Assembly: GCA_017442155.1 (NCBI GenBank)
Contig: JAFSAU010000030.1
Span: forward strand, 1 to 64,000
DNA length: 64,000 nucleotides
DNA from: Clostridia bacterium
GTDB lineage: Bacteria; Bacillota; Clostridia; UMGS1883; UMGS1540
Direction of reading: 5' to 3'
Below are positions 231 to 39,259 of this stretch, one piece after another (the stretch's first letter is position 1; each line of letters opens with the position of its first letter). The position numbers and the translations under genes were made by a program. The notes beneath the pieces were generated by a model, which did not search any database, was not told the origin of the DNA, and worked only from the letters and a program-made list of their open reading frames with translations.

Positions 231-2405
231 CTATTCAATCACCCATTCACTCTGCGGAATGACGATAGGCTTGCATAACGGCGAAAGATTTCCCGTTCCG
301 CCCCACACCAGTATTTTGATTTCATCAAGGTCTCCTTCAAGAGTAGCAATTATAACCTCATTACTACACGTTACATTTTTCATATCAACAAATTGTCCGT
401 TTTTATATCCCGCAACAATCACTTCACATTGTTTATCATTATTAAATAACTTTGTTTCTACTCTGTGTATGGTATCACTTACTTTAACCGTTGGTTTTAT
501 ATATATATCTTCTATTTCGCAAATAAAACCTATTTCTGTATGCTTATAAAAGGTATCGTCCCACTTTCCTGTGCTTCTGTATATGCATGCATAGTTTGAT
601 TCCCCATCATTTTTACCACCATTAGGTTCTCCGTCCCCCCAATTCACATATGTATCATTAACTGAATAACCGTATACATCACCTTTCCAGAATTGTGTTC
701 CATTTATCCATTTCCAATTTTCATCTTCTTCCGCATCGGTACCGCCTATCCAATAATACTTTGATGTTCCATCTTGAATCAAATCATATATAATTTTATT
801 TTCCTCTGCGCTTTCTATAGTTACTAAATGTCCACCAAGTGTTTCACAATATTTCTTTGCGACATGCCATGGCAGTTTTTCGTCAAATATCATATATCTA
901 TCATTCTCTATAACAGGAGTTATTTCTTCAAACTCACAAACTACACCAATCTGCGTATGATTAAAAGATGTATCATCCCACATTCCTGTACTTTTATATA
1001 TACACGCATAGTTTGATTCGCCATCATTTTTACCGCCGTTGGGTTCTCCGTTACCCCAATTTACATATTCACTATTAACAGAAAATCCATTTGCTCCACC
1101 TTCCCAGAATTGTGTTCCGTTTATCCACTTCCAAATTTCATCATCCTCCGCATCGGTAGCGCCTATCCAATAATATTTCATAGTGCCATCCTGAAGTAAT
1201 TTATGGATTTTTGCATTTTCTTCTTCGCTTTCTATTGTTGCTAAATGACCACCTAATAATTCGCAATATTTCTCAGCAGCATACCACGACATTGGCTCGT
1301 CCAGAACTACATATTTTTTCCCTTCATCCAATTTTATACTTTCTATATCAATTACATTAAAGTAGTAATAATCACTGAATGTAGATAGCCAGTCTGTACC
1401 CGTTGCATTCCAGTAATTTGAATTTTTTGATTCCAGTATTACATAATAATAACCCGGAGCCAACTTTCTTGACACACCACTTTCAGCATAAAAAATATTC
1501 TCAATCCCTTTAAATATTCCCTCTTGGTCTAACCGTTTAATATAAAGATTGTAGTGTGTTGTATTATTTGTACTATCCCACTTAAAAGTAATATTATCCA
1601 TATTGCTATATAAATCTTGTATTCTCAATACCGGTTTCCCCGGGGCATTTACGCAAAATTTACAGGTCGATGAATAGGCAAATTCCTGCTTTGCAATAAT
1701 TTCTCCACATCTGCATTCGTAATAACAATAATGGGGGTGATTACCGCCGTAATACAAATACTTATCATGCGTATGCGTATGATTATTCATGCATTCAGAG
1801 CAGGATGTCAAAAACCCAAATTCTTGTTTTGCTTTGATATCGTCACAGTATGAACATTGATAGTATGCGTAATGCGGATGCCAGCCTCCATAATAACGAA
1901 AAACATCATAGGAATGCGTGTGTGTGACAGTTGATGTCTGATTAGTCAGTCTTCTTCCATACTCCAATTTACAACCGCTACCGCTATATGTCCAAGTAGA
2001 AATATAACTGCCGTATTCGATTTGGCGACCTGCACCGGGAGCATGTATCATCTGATTATTTCCCACATATATTCCAACATGTCCAATGCTGCCATCGGAA
2101 TACGAAAAGCAACAAATATCGCCCGCCTTTAAATCGGAAATGGCAATTTTTGTTCCAACCTTCGCTTGATCATATGTTAGTCTGGGAATAGAATATCCAC
2201 AAGCAGCATATACTCTCTGCACCAACCCGCTGCAGTCTAACTTTACGCCGCCATCGCCTGCCCATCCATAGGAATAACCTAACCATTTTTTTGCTTCCGC
2301 AACAATATCGGCACCTGTTGCCGCATTAACTGTCATTGGTTCTACCAGAACTACAGATACCACCACACACACCGCAACAACCACACTTAAAATCCTTTTT
2401 CTCAC
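231..2405 (-). CDS. Secreted NlpC/P60 peptidase with two C-type lectin domains
   Basis: A 724-residue exported protein. The GTG start at 2405 is chosen because GGAGG lies at 2414-2418; the frame stays open further upstream only through a terminator hairpin. Domains in order: signal peptide (1-28); NlpC/P60 endopeptidase (about 30-150) with Cys58 in DCSGLV, His109 in GHVGIYVG and His121; two Cys/His-rich repeats (about 162-252) with HTH, HPHY and paired CxxC that may bind metal; a fibronectin-like stretch (about 255-360); two C-type lectin-like domains (about 370-515 and 516-650), each with an EPN motif and a WDD-like segment typical of Ca2+/mannose-type binding; and a C-terminal ~75-residue module also found at the end of the M23 protein at 6492-9173. 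NlpC/P60 enzymes cut peptide stems of peptidoglycan; the lectin domains suggest binding to glycans. Substrate is inferred. Expression probably passes through the structured leader at 2419-2635. Confidence 0.88.
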   Translation of the reverse strand: MRKRILSVVVAVCVVVSVVLVEPMTVNAATGADIVAEAKKWLGYSYGWAGDGGVKLDCSGLVQRVYAACGYSIPRLTYDQAKVGTKIAISDLKAGDICCFSYSDGSIGHVGIYVGNNQMIHAPGAGRQIEYGSYISTWTYSGSGCKLEYGRRLTNQTSTVTHTHSYDVFRYYGGWHPHYAYYQCSYCDDIKAKQEFGFLTSCSECMNNHTHTHDKYLYYGGNHPHYCYYECRCGEIIAKQEFAYSSTCKFCVNAPGKPVLRIQDLYSNMDNITFKWDSTNNTTHYNLYIKRLDQEGIFKGIENIFYAESGVSRKLAPGYYYVILESKNSNYWNATGTDWLSTFSDYYYFNVIDIESIKLDEGKKYVVLDEPMSWYAAEKYCELLGGHLATIESEEENAKIHKLLQDGTMKYYWIGATDAEDDEIWKWINGTQFWEGGANGFSVNSEYVNWGNGEPNGGKNDGESNYACIYKSTGMWDDTSFNHTQIGVVCEFEEITPVIENDRYMIFDEKLPWHVAKKYCETLGGHLVTIESAEENKIIYDLIQDGTSKYYWIGGTDAEEDENWKWINGTQFWKGDVYGYSVNDTYVNWGDGEPNGGKNDGESNYACIYRSTGKWDDTFYKHTEIGFICEIEDIYIKPTVKVSDTIHRVETKLFNNDKQCEVIVAGYKNGQFVDMKNVTCSNEVIIATLEGDLDEIKILVWGGTGNLSPLCKPIVIPQSEWVIE

Positions 2406-2418
2406 GTAAAAAACCTCC

Positions 2419-2635
2419 AAAAAATAAAAAATGCGCCGACCGAAGCCGACGCAAAAAACGCAAACTCCGGTAGTCGCCAAACTAACTTAAACAGAGAAGT
2501 AGGAATATCCTGCCACACCATCCAATTGGAGCTTGCATTTTTAACAAAATCCAAAGATGGTATGCGCAAAAAAACGCAAAAGTATTCTTAGAAATAAAAA
2601 TACTCCTACCTTCTCTTTTATTCAGTTAGTTTGGC
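2419..2635 (-). ncRNA. Structured leader RNA, copy A, ending in a terminator
   Basis: The minus-strand leader of the NlpC/P60-lectin gene. The outer stem pairs 2624-2635 with 2476-2487 (12 bp, starting GCCAAAC). A second stem (GAGAAG.GTAGGA with TCCTACTTCTC) and internal hairpins, including CATACCATC with GATGGTGTG, lie inside. The outer stem is followed by GAC-N4-GGAG, then a hairpin 2432-2453 with a TTCG loop and a T-rich tract, i.e. an intrinsic terminator placed directly before the SD site. The same layout and nearly the same 3' sequence occur at 9273-9479. I do not recognise it as a known riboswitch family; class and ligand are unknown. Confidence 0.7.
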
Positions 2636-2642
2636 AAAAACA

Positions 2643-2671
2643 ATTATATCACAAAGGGCCCATAATTGCAA
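2643..2671 (-). promoter_or_regulatory. SigA-type promoter of leader A
   Basis: On the minus strand: TTGCAA (2671-2666), 17-bp spacer, TATAAT (2648-2643). The expected start falls at about 2636, right at the first base of the leader's outer stem. Confidence 0.75.
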
Positions 2672-2708
2672 CATTTTTTTACATTTAACCATTATTATAT
2701 GAAAACAC

Positions 2709-2737
2709 TTGAAAAATCACGTTGTTTGCATTATAAT
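2709..2737 (+). promoter_or_regulatory. SigA-type promoter of proC
   Basis: TTGAAA (2709-2714), 17-bp spacer, TATAAT (2732-2737), about 32 bp before the proC start codon. It diverges from the promoter at 2643-2671. Confidence 0.75.
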
Positions 2738-2768
2738 AGAAAAAAAACGAGAAAAGGCGTGAAAAAAT

Positions 2769-3554
2769 ATGAAAATCGGAATCATCGGCGCAGGCAACAT
2801 GTCTGCCGCCATTACAAAAGGACTGATTGGTGCAGGGGCTGTGCCGGCTGACATTTTTGTCAGCGACATTTCGGAGGAAAAGCTCCGCGAAGCCGCGGCA
2901 CTCGGCGTGCAAACCGGCACAAACGAAGAAGCCGCCAGGTTTGGCGATGCAGTGATTCTTGCTGTAAAACCAAACATTTTCGAGAAAGCTCTCCCCTCTC
3001 TTGCAGATTTACTGAAAGGAAAGCTTGTCATTTCCATTGCAGCAGGCATTACCATTGGATTTATTTCCTCACTGCTTCCCGGCGCACGCATTGTACGGCT
3101 GATGCCCAACACCCCCGCCCTCGTGGGTGCTGGGATGACCGCCATTTCCTTTGCCGCCCCGGCAACGCAGGCAGATGCGGACACCGTAGAAAAGCTGTTT
3201 TCTTCTTTAGGAAAAACGGTACAGGTGCCGGAAAGTCTTATGGATGCTGTTGTTGCGGTAAGCGGCAGCGGTCCTGCCTATGTATATATGCTCATTGACG
3301 CCATGGCGCAAGGCGGTGTGGTGCAGGGCCTTTCCAAGAAGGATGCACTTCTTCTGGCTGCGCAGACTGTACTGGGCGCGGCGAAAATGGTTCTCGAAAC
3401 CGGAGAACACCCGGCCGTTCTCTGCGACAATGTCTGTTCACCCGGCGGCACTACGATTGCCGCAGTGGAGGTCCTGGAAAACAAGGGCTTCCGCGCCTCG
3501 GTAATGGAAGCCGAAAAAAGATGTGCCGAAAAAAGTTCACAGCTGAAAAAATAA
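2769..3554 (+). CDS. proC: Pyrroline-5-carboxylate reductase
   Basis: The last step of proline synthesis: reduces 1-pyrroline-5-carboxylate to L-proline with NAD(P)H in the cytoplasm. The 261 residues match the usual family length. The N-terminus KIGIIGAGNMSAAI is the Rossmann nucleotide-binding motif. The C-terminal half carries VAVSGSGPAYVYM and SPGGTTIAAV, the dimerisation/substrate signature of ProC. It is the first gene of a plus-strand run with spoIIM, the xerD-like gene and dacF, and has its own consensus promoter at 2709-2737. Grouping with sporulation genes is probably positional rather than functional. Confidence 0.95.
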   Translation: MKIGIIGAGNMSAAITKGLIGAGAVPADIFVSDISEEKLREAAALGVQTGTNEEAARFGDAVILAVKPNIFEKALPSLADLLKGKLVISIAAGITIGFISSLLPGARIVRLMPNTPALVGAGMTAISFAAPATQADADTVEKLFSSLGKTVQVPESLMDAVVAVSGSGPAYVYMLIDAMAQGGVVQGLSKKDALLLAAQTVLGAAKMVLETGEHPAVLCDNVCSPGGTTIAAVEVLENKGFRASVMEAEKRCAEKSSQLKK

Positions 3555-3565
3555 ACATACTTGTC

Positions 3566-3597
3566 CCTTTTGCCGCATACACTACGGCAAAAGGAGG
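3566..3597 (+). promoter_or_regulatory. Hairpin covering the spoIIM ribosome-binding site
   Basis: A perfect 10-bp inverted repeat (3566-3575 with 3585-3594, CCTTTTGCCG / CGGCAAAAGG) whose right arm contains most of the AAAAGGAGG Shine-Dalgarno sequence of spoIIM. No T run follows, so translational masking is more likely than termination. This is inferred from sequence only. Confidence 0.55.
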
Positions 3598-3603
3598 CTT
3601 TAG

Positions 3604-4167
3604 ATGGATACGAAAACAAAATTCTGGTTATTTTGTATGCCGGTAGCGGTGATTGCCGGTATTTGTCTCGGAACGGTGGCGGCGGCGCGGACGGACACTT
3701 CATCCCTTTTTGCGGCGGCGGCGGAGAGCATGGCCTCGGAAGCGATGATGCCGGACAGTTTTTTTAAAGCACTCCGGCAAAACGTCCTGGCGGCAGGTCT
3801 TCTCTGCGTATTCGGTACCACGGTGCTGGGGGTGATTCCCTCTGCAATTTTGCTGACGCTCCGGGGCTACGCTGTAGGAAAAACTGTCGGTGCACTGGTA
3901 GCGACGTTTGGATTTCGGGGCTTTGGAGCGGCGGTATGCGGCGTTTTCCCCCACAATCTTCTGTACATACCGTTTTTGTCTCTTCTGGCTGTATGCGGCA
4001 CCCGGTTTTCGCGGCGGCTCATGCACGGTGAAGGAAAAAAACGGGGTCAGCTGGCAGGCTATCTGTTTTCGGCGGCACTTCTGACCTTGCCTGTACTTCT
4101 GGGATGTGTGGTAGAAGGGTACATTTCCGCGCCGCTACTGAAATCGATTCTTGGCCCGCATTTATAA
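3604..4167 (+). CDS. spoIIM: Stage II sporulation protein M-like membrane protein
   Basis: A 187-residue polytopic membrane protein of the SpoIIM family. In Bacillus, SpoIIM forms the DMP peptidoglycan-hydrolase complex with SpoIID and SpoIIP that drives engulfment of the forespore. Visible here: N-terminal membrane segment (about 6-28), further hydrophobic spans around 58-85, 100-130 and 148-175, and the family motif FPHNLLYIP in the middle. The start is set by AAAAGGAGG 7 nt upstream. The following xerD-like gene starts 12 nt after the stop, an arrangement often seen in Clostridia. Partners spoIID and spoIIP are not in the window. Confidence 0.88.
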   Translation: MDTKTKFWLFCMPVAVIAGICLGTVAAARTDTSSLFAAAAESMASEAMMPDSFFKALRQNVLAAGLLCVFGTTVLGVIPSAILLTLRGYAVGKTVGALVATFGFRGFGAAVCGVFPHNLLYIPFLSLLAVCGTRFSRRLMHGEGKKRGQLAGYLFSAALLTLPVLLGCVVEGYISAPLLKSILGPHL

Positions 4168-4179
4168 AAGGAGTTACTT

Positions 4180-5043
4180 ATGGAGGCTTTTGTCACATAT
4201 CTGAAAAATGAAAAATGTTTGTCGGATGCCACAGCGGCCTCCTACTTACAAGACGTGCGCCGGTTTTCCGCCTTTCTCGGCAGAGACGCCGCCAAAGCCA
4301 GCCGTGAGGATGCAGAGGCCTATATTCTGCATATGCAAAGCCACGGCCGCTCTCCGGCTACTGTGCGCCGTTCCCTCTGTTCCCTGCACATCTATTACCG
4401 GTTTCTGGAAGCGACCGGAAAAACTACCATAGACCCAACCGCCCACATTCCGCGACCGGAAAACGACCGGAAACTGCCTCTGATTCTCACCGCCGGCGAG
4501 GCGATACGCCTTATGTCCGCCCCGGTGGGAGACAGTCCCCTTGCCCTGCGGGACAGGGCCATGCTGGAGCTATTGTATGCCACAGGCATCACGGTTTCAG
4601 AGCTGGTAGGTCTGCGGATTGAGAACATAAATCTGCGCCGCCGCACGTTAGTGCTTCGCGGCGCACACCGGACACGCACTGTCCCCTTTGGCAGGCCTGC
4701 AGCGGCGGCTCTGAACGAATATATCCGCAAAGCCCGGCCTCTGCTTCTCCGCGGGGGCGGTGAAGTAGCACTGTTTGTAAACTATACCGGCACCCCCATG
4801 TCCCGGCAGGGCTTCTGGAAGCTGATAAAAAAATACAAGGAACAGGCCGGCATTGATAAGGAAATCACGCCACACATGCTCCGGCATTCCTTTGCGGCCC
4901 ATCTTCTGGAGGGCGGTGCGGACCTCGGCTCCATTCAGGAGATGATGGGCTTCATTGACCCATCCTCCACGTCCGTTTATACTAAAATTGTGGAAAACCA
5001 GCTTGCGGACGTTTACAAGAAAGCCCATCCCCGGGCAAACTAA
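4180..5043 (+). CDS. XerD-like tyrosine recombinase with degraded active site
   Basis: 287 residues with full XerC/D architecture: an N-terminal SAM-like core-binding domain (1-85) and a catalytic domain (about 100-280). The family normally resolves chromosome dimers at dif. Aligning with E. coli XerD by eye, the residues R148, K172 and H270 are replaced here: Thr138 in YATGITVSELVGL where Arg is expected, Ala162 in LRGAHRTR where GKGxK is expected (one residue also missing), and Phe258 in MMGFID where GH is expected. His232 and Arg235 (HMLRH) and the nucleophile Tyr267 (SVYTK) remain. The reading frame is intact. It may be a structural or DNA-binding paralogue rather than an active recombinase; a genuine XerC/D pair would then be elsewhere. 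Start: SD AAAGGAG at about 4168. Confidence 0.85.
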   Translation: MEAFVTYLKNEKCLSDATAASYLQDVRRFSAFLGRDAAKASREDAEAYILHMQSHGRSPATVRRSLCSLHIYYRFLEATGKTTIDPTAHIPRPENDRKLPLILTAGEAIRLMSAPVGDSPLALRDRAMLELLYATGITVSELVGLRIENINLRRRTLVLRGAHRTRTVPFGRPAAAALNEYIRKARPLLLRGGGEVALFVNYTGTPMSRQGFWKLIKKYKEQAGIDKEITPHMLRHSFAAHLLEGGADLGSIQEMMGFIDPSSTSVYTKIVENQLADVYKKAHPRAN

Positions 5044-5184
5044 CGGGTTTACCGGTCGTAGCCAGTGTGAAACGCTGTGCATAAGAACAGGAAAAATTTC
5101 CTGAAACGGACATAATCAATGCCACACCGGAATAGGATACTACCACGATGGGATGTGCGCGTCCCGGAAATGGAGGCCTTTTCT

Positions 5185-6321
5185 TTGAAAAAATGTATTT
5201 CTTTTCTACTCTCTCTTTTTCTTATCCTGTCGGCACTGCCTGCCGGAGCCGACACCCCTGCCGTCGCGGTAAACGCTAGGTCTGCCCTTTTAATGGAAGC
5301 GTCCACCGGACGGATTCTCTATGAAAGCAACATTCATGAAGCGATGCCCCCGGCCTCAGTCACCAAAATCATGACCATGCTCCTGACGATGGAAGCGATT
5401 GCTGACGGACGCCTTACCTATGACACCATAGTTACGGCCAGCGAAAATGCAAAACGCATGGGCGGCTCCACCATTTTTCTGGATACGGGCGAACAAATGT
5501 CCGTATATGACCTTCTGAAGGGAATTGCCGTTGCTTCCGGCAACGATGCATGCGTAGCCATGGCGGAACATCTGGCCGGAAGCGAAGCCGAGTTTGTACG
5601 GCAAATGAACGAGCGGGCGGCGGCCCTCGGCATGGAAAACACCCACTTTGTCAACTGTAACGGTCTGGATACGGAAGGCCATGTGACCAGTGCCTACGAC
5701 ATTGCGCTGATGAGCCGCGAGCTATTAAAGCATGAGGATATTTTTCAGTTCACCACCATCTGGGTGGACAGTCTCAGAAACGGTGCATTTGGTCTTGCCA
5801 ACACCAATAAACTGATTCGTTTTTATGATGGTGCCAACGGCCTTAAAACCGGCTCCACCGATGATGCACTTTACTGTCTTTCTGCCACGGCAAAACGGGA
5901 CGACATGCAGCTCATTGCCGTTATCATGGGTGCCCCCACCACGAAAGACCGCTTTGACAGTGCCCGTGCCCTTCTTGATTACGGCTTTGCCAATTTCTCC
6001 ATTGCCCACGCAGCTGATACGGAAACACCCGTGCACAGTATCCGGGTGGAAAAAGGTACAAGAAATGCGGTAACGCTCCGTTGCGGCGAGTCCCTATCGG
6101 TGCTCCTGCCTAAAGGGAAGACCGATGAGGTCCTGACGCGAATAGAAGCACCCGAAAGCGTAACCGCACCCGTTGCCGCCGGTCAGGAAGCGGGCAGAAT
6201 AGTCTTTTATATCGGCGAGGAGGAGCTGGGAAAAGTGCCGCTGGTGTTTACCGAAGATGTGCCCAAAAAATCCTTCGGAAGCGTTCTTTGTGAACTGCTT
6301 TCCCGTTGGTGCGCGGCCTAA
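5185..6321 (+). CDS. dacF: D-alanyl-D-alanine carboxypeptidase (DacF/PBP5 family)
   Basis: A low-molecular-weight penicillin-binding protein that trims the terminal D-Ala of peptidoglycan stem peptides outside the membrane. With the TTG start at 5185, eight bases after GGAGG (5172-5176), the protein has 378 residues and a clean signal peptide (about 1-22, KKCISFLLSLFLILSALPAG). All three serine-peptidase motifs are present: S58-V-T-K61, S118-G-N and K221-T-G. The C-terminal part (about 275-345) fits the PBP5-C beta domain, with a hydrophobic/amphipathic tail. Proximity to spoIIM agrees with the sporulation-linked DacF subgroup. An ATG further upstream (5119) would remove the signal peptide from the N-terminus and has no SD. 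Confidence 0.92.
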   Translation: MKKCISFLLSLFLILSALPAGADTPAVAVNARSALLMEASTGRILYESNIHEAMPPASVTKIMTMLLTMEAIADGRLTYDTIVTASENAKRMGGSTIFLDTGEQMSVYDLLKGIAVASGNDACVAMAEHLAGSEAEFVRQMNERAAALGMENTHFVNCNGLDTEGHVTSAYDIALMSRELLKHEDIFQFTTIWVDSLRNGAFGLANTNKLIRFYDGANGLKTGSTDDALYCLSATAKRDDMQLIAVIMGAPTTKDRFDSARALLDYGFANFSIAHAADTETPVHSIRVEKGTRNAVTLRCGESLSVLLPKGKTDEVLTRIEAPESVTAPVAAGQEAGRIVFYIGEEELGKVPLVFTEDVPKKSFGSVLCELLSRWCAA

Positions 6322-6434
6322 AGGCCAAAATTCACAGATTATTCAAAAACTCCTTATAGTCGGGACATAAATTTATGCTATTCTAAAACATAAGGGAGTC
6401 AGTGCTCCCGCAACCAATTCTTTTTCATTTTTCT

Positions 6435-6475
6435 CACAACAGACCCGCCTTTGGCGGGTCTGTTGTGTTGTTTTT
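6435..6475 (+). terminator. Intrinsic terminator after dacF
   Basis: A 15-bp perfect GC-rich stem (6435-6449 with 6453-6467), three-base loop, then TTGTTTTT. It sits between the convergent dacF and M23 genes. A smaller hairpin GGGAG/CTCCC lies upstream near 6394-6409. Confidence 0.85.
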
Positions 6476-6491
6476 ACAAGGTAATTTTTTG

Positions 6492-9173
6492 TTATTCCCC
6501 AGCTTCAAGCCACGCGATTTTTGGCATGACTTCTGCATCACCAATCGGACTCAAATTTTCAGGATTCCACAAATACACCATAACCGTATCAGAATCTGTT
6601 TCCGGCAAAAGACAGAAACCTTTTTCACGCTCTGTTTCCTTAATCCGGTAGCTCTCAGCGGCTGTCAGCCTATCCTCTTTATAAGCTGTAACAAAAATTA
6701 CAGCATTTTCATATTGCCCGACAATCTCTGTGGAAACTTGAATCACTCCATTCTCCTTCGTCACAGCAGAATGGGTTGATAGTACTTCATTCGGATCAAC
6801 AACATAAAAAGTAATTATAGAACTATTAATAATCCCATATTCATTCCATGTAGCTATGTCTGCTGTATATTTACCGGCTTCTGTAAAACTTATTCCAAAC
6901 TCTGTTCCAATATCCGAACCAAAGATATGTTTTCCATTTTTATATATGCCGATTCCATATCCTCGACCTACGTCTGAATTACATTTAAACGTGATTTCTT
7001 CTCCAATATTAACTACTGCTTTGTCTGTTTTCAATTCGCAATAGATAGGAGACGTGTTATAAACTCTGAAAGTAACAACCGAACTGTCAAGTGAGCCATA
7101 ATCATTCAAAGCTGTGACGTATGCAGTGTATGTTCCGGGTTCAAAAAAGCTTTTATTAAATGGTGGAGTTATATTTGATGAAAAAATACGGCTTCCATCT
7201 TTGTTGATACCGATATCAAATCTTTCTGCATAATCAGAACTACAGAAGAATGTAATTTCTTCCCCAACATTTAATAGTGTTTTATTGGTCTCCACATTGC
7301 AATATGTTGGCTTGGAATTATATACTTCAAAAGATATGCGTGGGCTATCTACTAATCCATATTCATTCCATACTGAAATGTATGCGGTATATATCCCCGG
7401 TTCAGAAAAGCTTTTGCTGAATACGGTGCTTATATCCGAACTAAACACACGGATTCCGTCTTTATCAATTCCAATCGCATAACCTCGTGCATAGTCAGAG
7501 TTGCAATTAAAAACCACCTCTTCACCGGACTTTACAATAGTTTTATTGCAATTCAAAATTCCATATGTGGGTGCAGAATCATAAACCACAAAAGAAATTC
7601 GTGAACTATCAACCGAACCGTATTCATTTTCAGCAGTAACATACGCTGTATATTCTCCTGCTTCCGAAAAGCTTTTGTTAAAGCCAGAAGTTATAAAAGA
7701 TGAAAAATACCGTTCGCCATTTTTATCTATTCCTATTGCAAATCTACGAGCCGAATCTGAATTACAGTTGAACGTAATTTCCTCATTCAAAGCAGCAAGA
7801 GTCTTATCTATAATTAACTCACTATAGGCTGGTCTTGTATTATATACAACAAATGTTATCGGTGCGCTGTCGCAGCCGCCAAAGGAATTGTAACATGTAA
7901 CATAAGCGGAATAGGTTCCGGTTTCAGTAAAAGAAGTTGTATAATAGTTTGATTCTCCTACGTTGGGACTACTTACTCTTCCCTCGCCCACCTTATCAAT
8001 CCCAAGTCCGAAATATGCCGCGTTTCCGGCATTAAATGTAAATGTTATCTCTTCCCCCACATTTATAATAGTTTTGTCAGCGACAATCCATGGATTATAG
8101 GGTGCACCGGCATAAACCGAAAATGTTATCCATTGACTGTCTATTGTTCCGATAGAATTCCAGGCCGTAACATATGCGGCATAGCTTCCCGGTTCAGAGA
8201 AACTTGTTTCATATACAGCATTAACATCCCCGGTAAAAATCCTGTTTCCGTCTTTAGTTATACCAATTGTATATCCGATTGCATTTGTTCCCGTGCATGT
8301 AAAGGTTATTGTTTCTCCGGCGGAAAAATTACTTTTATTTGTTGACACAGAAACATTTGTGGGTACTGTGTTATACACAGTAAAAGTTACTCTGGCACTA
8401 TCCACCGTTCCCACGGCATTCCACGCCGACACATATGCCGAATATGTTCCTGCATCCGTAAAGGAAGTTTCGTATACAGCATTGATATCCCCGGTAAAAA
8501 TTCTGGTTCCGTCCCTGTCAATGCCGATTGTGTATCCGCTTACATTTGTTCCGGCACATGTAAATGTAACCGTTTCGCCCGCCGCATACAATGACTTATT
8601 CACAGAAAGTGAAACATTTCGGGGTGCCTCCGTGTAATCCCCCGGATTATTGGTATTTATGTAATTTAAAGGATTAACATACGTTCCGCTTGCGTTTTTT
8701 ATTGCAAAATGAAGGTGATTTCCCGTAGAACTTCCCGTTGTTCCCACTCCTCCCAAGTACTGTCCCTGCGATACATATGTCCCGGTCGAAACAGCAACAG
8801 AAGAGAGATGCATATAGATAGATGATGTACCATCGGAGTGTTTGAGCGTTACATAGTTTCCCATGCTTTTTGAGCCACAGGATGTACCAACTGTGCATTT
8901 AATAGACTCTTTTGCCCCGGAATAATGGGAACCTGTACAGCTATTATAGCTGGCGATAACCGTTCCGGATTTTGTAGCTCTGACCGCGCTCCCTTTTGCC
9001 GCCGGAAAATCCTGTCCATTATGTGTCCCATTGTGAACGGAACATGTACAATTAAACTTGTCTCCTATACTGATATAATCAACAATTGGCATCCACCATG
9101 ACTCACCTGCACTTACTATTATGCTTAAACTAAGCATCCCTACGATCAGCAGTAACCCAAGCATTTTTTTCAT
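6492..9173 (-). CDS. Secreted M23 metallopeptidase with seven Ig-like repeats
   Basis: 893 residues from ATG 9173, preceded by GAAAGGG; an ATG 21 nt upstream lacks an SD. Signal peptide about 1-22. The M23/lysostaphin-type domain (about 35-175) shows the zinc ligands: His51 and Asp55 in HNGQD, and HLHF (His153, His155), plus His122. This family cleaves peptidoglycan cross-bridges. Then follow seven tandem repeats of about 87 residues (about 185-795), each opening with a pattern like NKT...GEEITF.C and containing an IGIDKDG..IF core and a GxYxAYV end, which resemble Ig/PKD-like spacer domains. The last ~95 residues form a module similar to the end of the protein at 231-2405 (...YLWNPENLSP...). 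Likely a cell-surface or secreted wall hydrolase with a long stalk. A structured leader precedes it. Confidence 0.9.
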   Translation of the reverse strand: MKKMLGLLLIVGMLSLSIIVSAGESWWMPIVDYISIGDKFNCTCSVHNGTHNGQDFPAAKGSAVRATKSGTVIASYNSCTGSHYSGAKESIKCTVGTSCGSKSMGNYVTLKHSDGTSSIYMHLSSVAVSTGTYVSQGQYLGGVGTTGSSTGNHLHFAIKNASGTYVNPLNYINTNNPGDYTEAPRNVSLSVNKSLYAAGETVTFTCAGTNVSGYTIGIDRDGTRIFTGDINAVYETSFTDAGTYSAYVSAWNAVGTVDSARVTFTVYNTVPTNVSVSTNKSNFSAGETITFTCTGTNAIGYTIGITKDGNRIFTGDVNAVYETSFSEPGSYAAYVTAWNSIGTIDSQWITFSVYAGAPYNPWIVADKTIINVGEEITFTFNAGNAAYFGLGIDKVGEGRVSSPNVGESNYYTTSFTETGTYSAYVTCYNSFGGCDSAPITFVVYNTRPAYSELIIDKTLAALNEEITFNCNSDSARRFAIGIDKNGERYFSSFITSGFNKSFSEAGEYTAYVTAENEYGSVDSSRISFVVYDSAPTYGILNCNKTIVKSGEEVVFNCNSDYARGYAIGIDKDGIRVFSSDISTVFSKSFSEPGIYTAYISVWNEYGLVDSPRISFEVYNSKPTYCNVETNKTLLNVGEEITFFCSSDYAERFDIGINKDGSRIFSSNITPPFNKSFFEPGTYTAYVTALNDYGSLDSSVVTFRVYNTSPIYCELKTDKAVVNIGEEITFKCNSDVGRGYGIGIYKNGKHIFGSDIGTEFGISFTEAGKYTADIATWNEYGIINSSIITFYVVDPNEVLSTHSAVTKENGVIQVSTEIVGQYENAVIFVTAYKEDRLTAAESYRIKETEREKGFCLLPETDSDTVMVYLWNPENLSPIGDAEVMPKIAWLEAGE

Positions 9174-9272
9174 AATACTAACCCTTTCTTTCATTGAATC
9201 TTTTATGCATTTTCAATTCACCGAATATCATGAAAGTGCCATCTATCCCCCTTTTATAATTACTTGTAAATT

Positions 9273-9479
9273 AAAAAATGCGCCAACCGAAGCTGACGCA
9301 TGAAAAACGTTAGCTCCAATTGTCGCCAAACAAAATCCGAACATACCGCGAAAATGTGTTTTTCACCTCAGACAGTATGCGTTGGAAAGAGCAAAACGTT
9401 TTTGCCGAAACGCAAAAACGCCACTGTAGAGGTTTCATAATAACACAGTGAAAAAAAGTATATTCAGATTTTGTTTGGC
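9273..9479 (-). ncRNA. Structured leader RNA, copy B, ending in a terminator
   Basis: The minus-strand leader of the M23 gene. The outer stem pairs 9463-9479 with 9325-9341 (17 bp, one G-T pair, again beginning GCCAAAC). Inside are CACTGT/ACAGTG, a CGTTTTTGC/GCAAAAACG hairpin and GAATATAC/GTATGTTC. After the outer stem comes GAC-N4-GGAG-N4-CGTTTTT, then a terminator hairpin 9279-9300 with TTCG loop and T6, almost identical to that at 2432-2453. Stem sequences differ between the copies while pairing is kept, which supports a conserved RNA fold. Between it and the start codon lie about 100 nt with no further clear structure. Confidence 0.7.
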
Positions 9480-9485
9480 ATTGCC

Positions 9486-9514
9486 ATTATAACATAAATA
9501 TTTCCGTTTGTCCA
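9486..9514 (-). promoter_or_regulatory. SigA-type promoter of leader B
   Basis: Minus strand TGGACA (9514-9509), 17-bp spacer, TATAAT (9491-9486). The predicted start coincides with the first base of the leader's outer stem (9479), as in copy A. Confidence 0.7.
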
Positions 9515-9579
9515 TTATTTTTTAGTAAAAATAAAAATCCAAAGGAATATTTCCCCCGGATTTTCTCTATCATTCTTTT

Positions 9580-18058: not shown

Positions 18059-18390
18059 ACATAATACAAAAGGGATGTAAAAAAGTCCAGACCGCAAAAA
18101 GGCAAAGAAAATGCAATATGCAAATAAGATTTGTTGCTTAAAAATGATTAAATTATGTTAAAAATCTCATTTCATTCGATTTTTCGCGATTCAAACGCCT
18201 TTTTGCTACAAACAAATCTCGCCTCTCAGCGACTGTTGCGACGCCGCCGGGAGGCGAAGTTTGTTCAAAACACAAGGAAATAAGCAGTGAGATGTAAAAA
18301 AGGAAAGAAAACCAATAAATTTTCATAGTTTACCAAGCTTTTGCTTTATAAAACCGTAGAAAAATTTACAGTTCCTTTTGTTGTGTCCCT
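18059..18390. other. Gene-free spacer with weak inverted repeat
   Basis: No convincing gene. The ends are an imperfect inverted repeat (ACAAAAGGGATGTAAA at 18066-18081 against TTTACAGTTCCTTTTGT at 18365-18381). In the middle a stem pairs AACAAATCTCGCCTC with GAGGCGAAGTTTGTT (about 18209-18271). It could be a decayed miniature element or a structured RNA; the convergent genes pcrA and araC would then both end in it. Confidence 0.35.
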
Positions 18391-38592: not shown

Positions 38593-38621
38593 TTGACAAA
38601 ATGCAAAAGATATGATATACT
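38593..38621 (+). promoter_or_regulatory. Strong SigA-type promoter of the OLE RNA
   Basis: TTGACA (38593-38598), 17-bp spacer, TATACT (38616-38621). The predicted start is about 38628. Confidence 0.85.
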
Positions 38622-38627
38622 GCATAG

Positions 38628-39228
38628 AAGGTGGTGCAGTATCCTAGTCAGGATGCCGATTCCCAAGACGGGCCTAAAAATCCGTAGAAGGGCATATCGA
38701 TGAAGTTCCTGGTGTTGGCTTTCGACGCCCAGTCGGGGGTCGATGCTGGGGGTTAAGGTTTAGGGGCGATTCGCAATGGCATGCGAGCGTTGACCCCTTT
38801 TCCGTGGAGACCTGCGTGCGTGCTTCTGCCTCTGCTCGTCCCCTGAGGGCGACGGAACGGAGTACGGCGCAGGAGTAAACCTGTCATGCGGTGCCGCATG
38901 GTGCTGTGGGCAGAGTAGCCTGCCTTGCGTGGGTATGAAGGATAACGGTTCAGGCTCCATTTTGTCGGCCAACAAAACGGAGATATTGCTGTTTGAAATC
39001 CTATCTGCAAAAAAGGCTAAGAATCGGTTTGACTGTTGAGGAAATCTCCTAGGCTGTTCAGGCTTGAGGGATACGGGGGATTGCAGTGCGGACTTAGTGG
39101 CAATCCGAATCAGACCCCTGCGGTCTGGCTTCTGTTTAATCGGAAACGGCCCGGAGCGGCGACGCGCGGGCACGGAAGCGGGAAATCCGTCTCGGACCTA
39201 TGCCGCAAAATTTACTCCGTATTCTGCC
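38628..39228 (+). ncRNA. ole: OLE RNA (ornate large extremophilic RNA), inferred
   Basis: A 600-nt GC-rich stretch without a plausible gene, starting at a consensus promoter and ending shortly before a small membrane-protein gene. Several local hairpins are visible: ATCCT-AGTC-AGGAT near the 5' end, TCGCA/TGCGA around 38770, and CCATTTTGT/ACAAAACGG around 38960. Length near 610 nt, the position upstream of an OapA-like gene, and neighbours dxs and tlyA/yqxC match published OLE loci of Firmicutes. tmRNA and RNase P RNA were excluded because their conserved ends and cores are missing. I recognised it from context and size, not from a covariance search. The 3' end is approximate. OLE forms a membrane-associated RNP with OapA linked to stress tolerance and magnesium/energy homeostasis in Halalkalibacterium. 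Confidence 0.8.
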
Positions 39229-39259
39229 ACCATATTTTTTATAAAAGGAAGTGCTATCC

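Follow-up and report, generated by a model that had tools for sequence, protein, structure and literature searches.

The window analysed here is a stretch of 64,000 nucleotides of a Clostridia bacterium (NCBI GenBank assembly GCA_017442155.1, contig JAFSAU010000030.1, positions 1 to 64,000), and on its minus strand it contains two structured leader RNAs, each upstream of a gene encoding a secreted peptidase. In both copies a consensus promoter is followed by a GCCAAAC...GTTTGGC outer stem, by GAC-N4-GGAG and by a TTCG-capped terminator, as the original prediction for this locus had described. Comparison with more than 100 relatives, collected by means of a tail signature and then a covariance model, suggests that the two copies belong to a new family of 5′ leaders, which probably act as three-helix transcription attenuators that are OFF by default. 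The parts considered below are the outer stem (P1), the terminator (T), the antiterminator (AT) and the pairing of an apical loop strand with the tail of the leader (PK); the antiterminator and the loop–tail pairing, as well as the existence of standalone copies, had no place in the first description. The features of the two loci are as follows.

2423..2635, minus strand: copy 1, whole leader RNA (167.2 bits, E 1.1e-30 with covariance model R1, which has this copy among its 60 training sequences)
2643..2671, minus strand: copy 1, promoter read directly from the sequence (-35 TTGCAA at 2666-2671, 17-nt spacer, extended -10 TGATATAAT, TATAAT at 2643-2648)
2620..2635, minus strand: copy 1, P1 5′ strand GCCAAACTAACTGAAT, predicted partner 2476-2492 (P1 covaries in the family)
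2528..2542, minus strand: copy 1, apical strand AAAAATGCAAGCTCC, putative 5′ half of PK (15 bp with 2454-2468; family statistics)
2476..2492, minus strand: copy 1, P1 3′ strand GTTTAAGTTAGTTTGGC (predicted fold and family covariation)
2465..2473, minus strand: copy 1, putative AT 5′ strand CTACCGGAG, partner at 2437-2445 (family statistics)
2454..2468, minus strand: copy 1, tail GGAGTTTGCGTTTTT, putative 3′ half of PK (2465-2468 shared with AT)
2437..2445, minus strand: copy 1, putative AT 3′ strand CTTCGGTCG, within the terminator hairpin
2426..2452, minus strand: copy 1, predicted intrinsic terminator GCGTCGGCTTCGGTCGGCGCATTTTTT (sequence and family covariation)
231..2405, minus strand: gene behind copy 1 (GTG start, GGAGG at 2414-2418; signal peptide, NlpC/P60, two C-type lectin domains)
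9270..9479, minus strand: copy 2, whole leader RNA (105.2 bits, E 1.3e-18 with R1, of which it is likewise a training sequence)
9486..9514, minus strand: copy 2, promoter (TGGACA at 9509-9514, 17-nt spacer, TATAAT at 9486-9491)
9458..9479, minus strand: copy 2, P1 5′ strand, predicted partner 9325-9349
9395..9421, minus strand: copy 2, apical hairpin GCGTTTTTGCGTTTCGGCAAAAACGTT (predicted fold, with the 3′ arm in competition with the tail)
9389..9400, minus strand: copy 2, apical strand AACGTTTTGCTC of the putative PK, complementary to its own divergent tail
9325..9349, minus strand: copy 2, P1 3′ strand (predicted fold)
9314..9322, minus strand: copy 2, putative AT 5′ strand CAATTGGAG, partner CTTCGGTTG at 9284-9292
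9306..9317, minus strand: copy 2, tail GGAGCTAACGTT, putative 3′ half of PK (pairing energy with its own loop)
9273..9301, minus strand: copy 2, predicted intrinsic terminator ATGCGTCAGCTTCGGTTGGCGCATTTTTT (sequence and family covariation)
6492..9173, minus strand: gene behind copy 2 (signal peptide, M23 peptidase, Ig/PKD-like repeats)

Both leaders fold far more stably than dinucleotide-shuffled sequences, with energies of -88.2 kcal/mol (z -10.3) for copy 1 and -80.3 kcal/mol (z -9.2) for copy 2, and none of 200 shuffles was as good in either case; in the minimum-energy fold of copy 2 the antiterminator is preferred over the terminator. The outer stems pair as proposed, with predicted lengths of about 14 bp instead of 12 in copy 1 and about 23 bp instead of 17 in copy 2, whereas the GCGTTTTTGCG-like interior stretches said to be common to both copies are not homologous, that of copy 2 being one arm of the apical hairpin. 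The terminator lies just before the peptidase gene in copy 1, while the gene behind copy 2 starts about 100 nt downstream of its terminator. The Pfam assignments of the two products are clear (NLPC_P60 7e-23 and Lectin_C 3e-36 behind copy 1, Peptidase_M23 2e-23 with PKD and Ig_2 behind copy 2). Weak plus-strand matches to R1 at 9325-9526 (E 3e-4) and 2476-2681 (E 2e-3) arise because the interior is palindromic, and a candidate third copy at 18077-18206 (E 0.37) was judged on inspection of its sequence to be a chance match.

In a covariance search against Rfam 15 (including ydaO, c-di-GMP, SAM, TPP and T-box) at E values up to 10, both copies gave only chance matches far below threshold, which agrees with the earlier failure to assign them to a known RNA family, and a search of 18 plus 6 relatives likewise matched no family. 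That the search works is evident from the detection of tRNA, tmRNA, OLE and T-box RNAs elsewhere. No description of the leader family was found in the full-text literature, a comparison that did not extend to the candidate tables of PMC8040213, where an unnamed overlap is possible. The latter survey lists thousands of unnamed structured-RNA candidates from human microbiomes (Fremin and Bhatt 2021) and, like the motif surveys of the Breaker laboratory (e.g. PMC11109978), concerns structured RNAs upstream of genes, obtained by comparative genomics of human-microbiome or bacterial genomes; a search of their main texts gave no matching description, though an unnamed overlap with their supplementary lists is possible.

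The short motif GGCGAC-N4-GGAG, with one mismatch allowed, is not more frequent in the window than expected by chance. The 2.4 Mb source genome has three occurrences of the exact longer tail signature TTGGCGACNNNNGGAG and none of its reversed control, and the 22-base extension of the signature was found in 13 copies in 8 of 60 related genomes, with near-zero control counts. Scanning 84,980 species genomes with TTGGCGACNNNNGGAGNNNNCGTTTTT yielded at least 119 stretches, and among the matches listed nearly all were from uncultured Clostridia, Oscillospiraceae and Eubacteriales assemblies, many of them from animal-gut samples, with Pumilibacter intestinalis as the sole named strain. Model R1 (216 positions, trained on 60 aligned members) detected 11 copies in the source genome at E<1e-4. 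Of 196 genomes sampled from the class, 47 had members, and in a 199-genome sample of the phylum the source genome was the sole positive; where a sample exceeded 40 genomes, scoring covered about 12 candidates in each, so that the counts from such samples are lower bounds. Nearly all relatives have the extended -10 promoter; their other common features are the TTCG terminator, an apical loop of the form GNTAAAAAYGC and, about 150 nt ahead of the tail, GCCAA. The leader family is real and large, apparently undescribed and absent from Rfam 15. The suggestion that the two copies represent an undescribed riboswitch- or attenuator-like cis-regulatory RNA is supported by the many homologues and the strong covariation, and neither an Rfam match nor a lack of homologues and covariation outside this genome, both named beforehand as arguments against it, was encountered.

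The four pairings were examined in alignment A2 (60 members), in which P1 comprises 13 pairs, PK 15 pairs and AT columns 233-243 with 263-274. For P1, the apical hairpin and T taken together, 92.8 % of cells are paired, as opposed to 83.9 % after shuffling (0 of 500 shuffles as good), with 17 pairs changed on both sides and at most 44.5 % paired in slid registers; T alone reaches 98.8 %, again with double changes. The corresponding values are 93.8 % for AT (up to 55 % in slid registers), one pair of which occurs as AU 28, UA 17, UG 6 and GC 2 times, and 97.9 % for PK (up to 58 %). The tail pairs with the interior of its own leader at -18.1 kcal/mol, compared with -8.1 kcal/mol after block-shuffling, the own pairing being the better one in 126 of 126 members of the strict set, which was collected with a fixed search pattern. 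Among strict members with unusual tails the leader's own loop pairs better in 21 of 23, including copy 2 of the window, whose tail GGAGCTAACGTT reaches -14.4 kcal/mol with its own loop AACGTTTTGCTC and -7.7 kcal/mol with consensus loops. Matched changes of both partners are also visible in individual copies (L191 ACAAAGCG/CGCTTTGT, L141 GTGAGC/GTTCAC, L142 ATGAGCC/GGCTCGTT, L169 GAGCG/CGCTC), as well as in P1 (GCTAAAC/GTTTAGC, GTCACAC/GTGTGAC). The predicted outer stem, terminator, antiterminator and loop–tail pairing are well supported by compensatory changes. At about +60 to +80 many members also have an internal hairpin with a U-tract behind it, a possible pause site that was weak in the block-shuffle test.

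The arrangement of these helices suggests how the leader may work. Sequence comparison shows a transcript that begins at a sigma-A promoter, with P1 enclosing a variable interior that bears the apical hairpin, and three further helices in competition: T, the intrinsic terminator ahead of the gene; AT, in which the segment right after P1 (GAC-N4-GGAG) pairs with part of T, namely its loop and 3′ arm; and PK, in which the apical strand (AAAAAUGCAAAUUCC) pairs with the tail (GGAGUUUGCGUUUUU), overlapping the 5′ strand of AT. Columns 263-265 and 271-274 are common to T and AT, which makes these helices mutually exclusive; columns 238-243 are common to AT and PK, while PK and T share none, so that PK would permit the terminator, which AT would forbid. 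With PK formed the terminator would win and the gene would be OFF, whereas an apical strand retained in its local hairpin (it is also one arm of GAAUUUG/CAAAUUC), or a blocked PK, would let AT form and transcription read through into the gene. Summed helix energies favour PK with T (-31.7 kcal/mol) over the apical hairpin with AT (-21.6 kcal/mol) when the pseudoknot penalty is ignored, and for this reason OFF is the predicted default; disruption of PK, e.g. by altering AAAAATGCAAG, would be expected to increase read-through. Since no compact conserved aptamer was seen outside these helices, the signal that sets the switch is as likely to be a protein, an RNA or the speed or pausing of the polymerase as a small ligand.

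Such a leader would resemble the T-box, S-box and pyr leaders in having a terminator before the gene, an exclusive antiterminator and an upstream strand able to sequester the antiterminator, but it differs from them in the diversity of its targets and in the absence of an Rfam match, a recognised aptamer, a specifier or a protein site. The c-di-AMP (ydaO) and c-di-GMP riboswitches can precede genes for cell-wall and surface proteins in Firmicutes and occur in several copies per genome; the new family differs from them in architecture and conserved residues, as well as in the lack of a covariance-model match. As in the antisense attenuators of pT181- or pIP501-type plasmids, apical-loop pairing would decide between terminator and antiterminator; however, the new family is chromosomal and present at many loci, its pairing partner lies in the same RNA and no antisense transcript was identified.

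With gene starts taken from a simple home-made caller, the next gene lies on the same strand in 107 of the 126 strict members, within 40 nt of the terminator in 56 and within 150 nt in 87; in the remainder it is convergent (10) or the leader is at a contig end or without a gene (9). Of 58 matches found by R1, 45 are likewise followed by a same-strand gene. According to crude composition tests, leader-linked genes more often encode signal-like N-termini than other genes of the same loci (42/84, 50 %, versus 101/565, 18 %; p 1e-9), and the same holds for lipoboxes (16/84 versus 23/565) and membrane spans (54/84 versus 166/565). Pfam domains among 77 downstream proteins include BspA-type LRR (11), Cu_amine_oxidN1 (5), AbrB/MazE (4) and AMP-binding domains of AMP-ligases (3), as well as zinc ribbons, SHOCT, dockerin, SLH, M23 and NlpC/P60, and many of the proteins are small and unknown. 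The wider target rule is exported or envelope proteins, not wall hydrolases alone; peptidoglycan hydrolases, suggested by the two genes in the window, are not supported as the general target, NlpC/P60 and M23 each being found in one of the 77 proteins. In genome G043 five leaders (L187, L188, L192, L193, L194) each precede a small Cys-rich paralogue (MEIIDVTGIKLTPGNEGKDCLGNG...ECCCDECDYL), with related proteins behind L023, L032, L042 and L115 in other genomes, and in genome G130 each of L177-L180 and L182 precedes one of five paralogous small membrane proteins (M..KI...YFAPVRSI...).

Roughly half of the copies in the source genome (11 in all) lack a gene immediately behind them. Such standalone copies (L137, L141-L144) retain the promoter, P1, the pairing and the terminator, and the loop/tail type of L141-L143, GAGCYGTGCG, was observed in none of that genome's leader copies; those of G130 (L181, L183-L185) were assigned by model match and gene context only. 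About 15-60 nt past the terminator of L141, L142, L143, L168, L181, L183, L184, L185 and L191 the tail recurs in inverted orientation (e.g. AAACGCAAACCCCGGTGTCGCCAAACA), so that the terminator sits within a larger palindrome; in this respect standalone copies differ modestly from gene-linked ones (p 0.003). The tail-only element L001 of the source genome (GGTTGGCGACAATCGGAGTTTGCG; C25:16758-16779, minus strand) is situated directly behind an operon terminator and has neither P1 nor the TTCG terminator. The standalone copies could represent small RNAs, relics or bidirectional terminators. Elsewhere in the window, a full-length OLE (Ornate Large Extremophilic) RNA occupies 38615-39246 on the plus strand (482 bits).

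Several considerations weigh against a default-OFF attenuator operating in cis. The search pattern of the strict set required parts of the tail and the GCCAA end of P1, and conservation there is inflated; for this reason, own and swapped partners were compared in 56 members found by R1, for which the exact pattern was not needed, but R1 itself had been trained on the first set. Own partners were better in 54 of the 56 for P1, in 51 for AT (p 2e-8) and in 37 for PK (p 0.003), which supports all three helices, the advantage for PK being modest. Owing to the overlap between T and AT, part of the covariation is common to both. For PK to form in cis, a linker of about 7 nt in the tail would have to reach across the long P1-P3 rod, and since the apical loop is far from the tail this would need a junction that folds back or an opening of P1, unless PK forms between molecules; the energy sums leave out the cost of this geometry. 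Moreover, the several copies without a downstream gene are not explained by a pure leader function.

One rival is a trans-acting feedback RNA, for which the short terminated RNAs and the standalone copies would be the regulators: the apical loop of a free copy would pair with the tail in a leader still being transcribed and force termination, the copies of a genome forming an RNA–RNA network. The gene-less copies here and in G130 and the loop and tail sequences common to many members would suit such a network, as would the awkward geometry of cis pairing; nevertheless, loop and tail coevolve within a copy, as the unusual members indicate, which better suits cis pairing or self-dimers, and the loop/tail type of L141-L143 has no counterpart among the leaders of its genome, so that this explanation is considered unlikely. 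Somewhat less doubtful is a new class of metabolite riboswitch, in which a small molecule at the apical hairpin or junction would set PK against AT. Its transcription-terminator architecture, multi-copy regulon and lack of a detected protein partner are in keeping with this possibility, and the diversity of targets has a precedent, since second-messenger riboswitches also control many unrelated genes. On the other hand, no compact invariant unpaired pocket was seen in the 60 aligned members, although PK pairing masks the conserved loop residues; the interior varies in sequence and length, the conserved loop is accounted for by pairing itself and the targets share no pathway.

In other bacteria LoaP, BglG/LicT-type CAT_RBD proteins, ANTAR proteins and CsrA govern terminators or bind to GGA motifs, and a known protein-dependent attenuator of this kind was therefore weighed as well, but their distributions argue that none is a general partner and render the idea barely credible. 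Among the 196 genomes, LoaP exceeded the cut-off in 32 and CsrA was present in 68, in neither case in any of the 47 RNA-positive ones, CAT_RBD was present in 16, one of them RNA-positive, and ANTAR in 99, including some positives; CsrA, CAT_RBD and ANTAR are absent from the source genome, and ANTAR also from other RNA-rich genomes such as G043. That the RNA never shares a genome with CsrA or LoaP probably reflects shared ancestry rather than function. The palindromic interior and the scattered multi-copy distribution, together with the inverted tails behind several standalone members and the tail-only L001, are reminiscent of a mobile MITE-like repeat or a bidirectional terminator whose hairpins act as DNA and have no regulatory role. 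This is improbable in view of the compensatory changes in competing helices and the promoter and same-strand gene placement, and the strict pattern had no match in 2.9 million viral contigs, a search that did not include plasmid and phage collections. Other candidates were rejected: a leader peptide (members read by eye have no conserved start, frame or stop, and the frame of the RTG at the terminator base is not conserved either), an integron attC site with R″...R′ boxes like GCCAAAC/GTTTGGC (the copies are scattered and promoter-led, and P1 changes in sequence yet still pairs in L137, L138, L139, L144 and L172), and a retron or type III toxin–antitoxin RNA (the genes downstream vary widely and include no conspicuous reverse transcriptase or ToxN).

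The default-OFF attenuator makes exact predictions through its three-helix anatomy, which means that its mechanism is testable with one in vitro template, its signal can be sought in an ordinary screen for ligands or factors, and the covariance model makes the family annotatable. A widespread regulatory RNA that is absent from Rfam would offer a handle on the control of secreted and surface proteins (BspA-type LRR, S-layer, dockerin, hydrolases) in poorly cultured gut Clostridia. More tentatively, and with somewhat less than even confidence, the family may constitute a genome-wide switch, present in at least 10 copies per genome in some lineages, that would set the expression of some of the proteins exported by uncultured gut Clostridia in response to one signal, be it a new riboswitch ligand or a new trans-acting factor or RNA.

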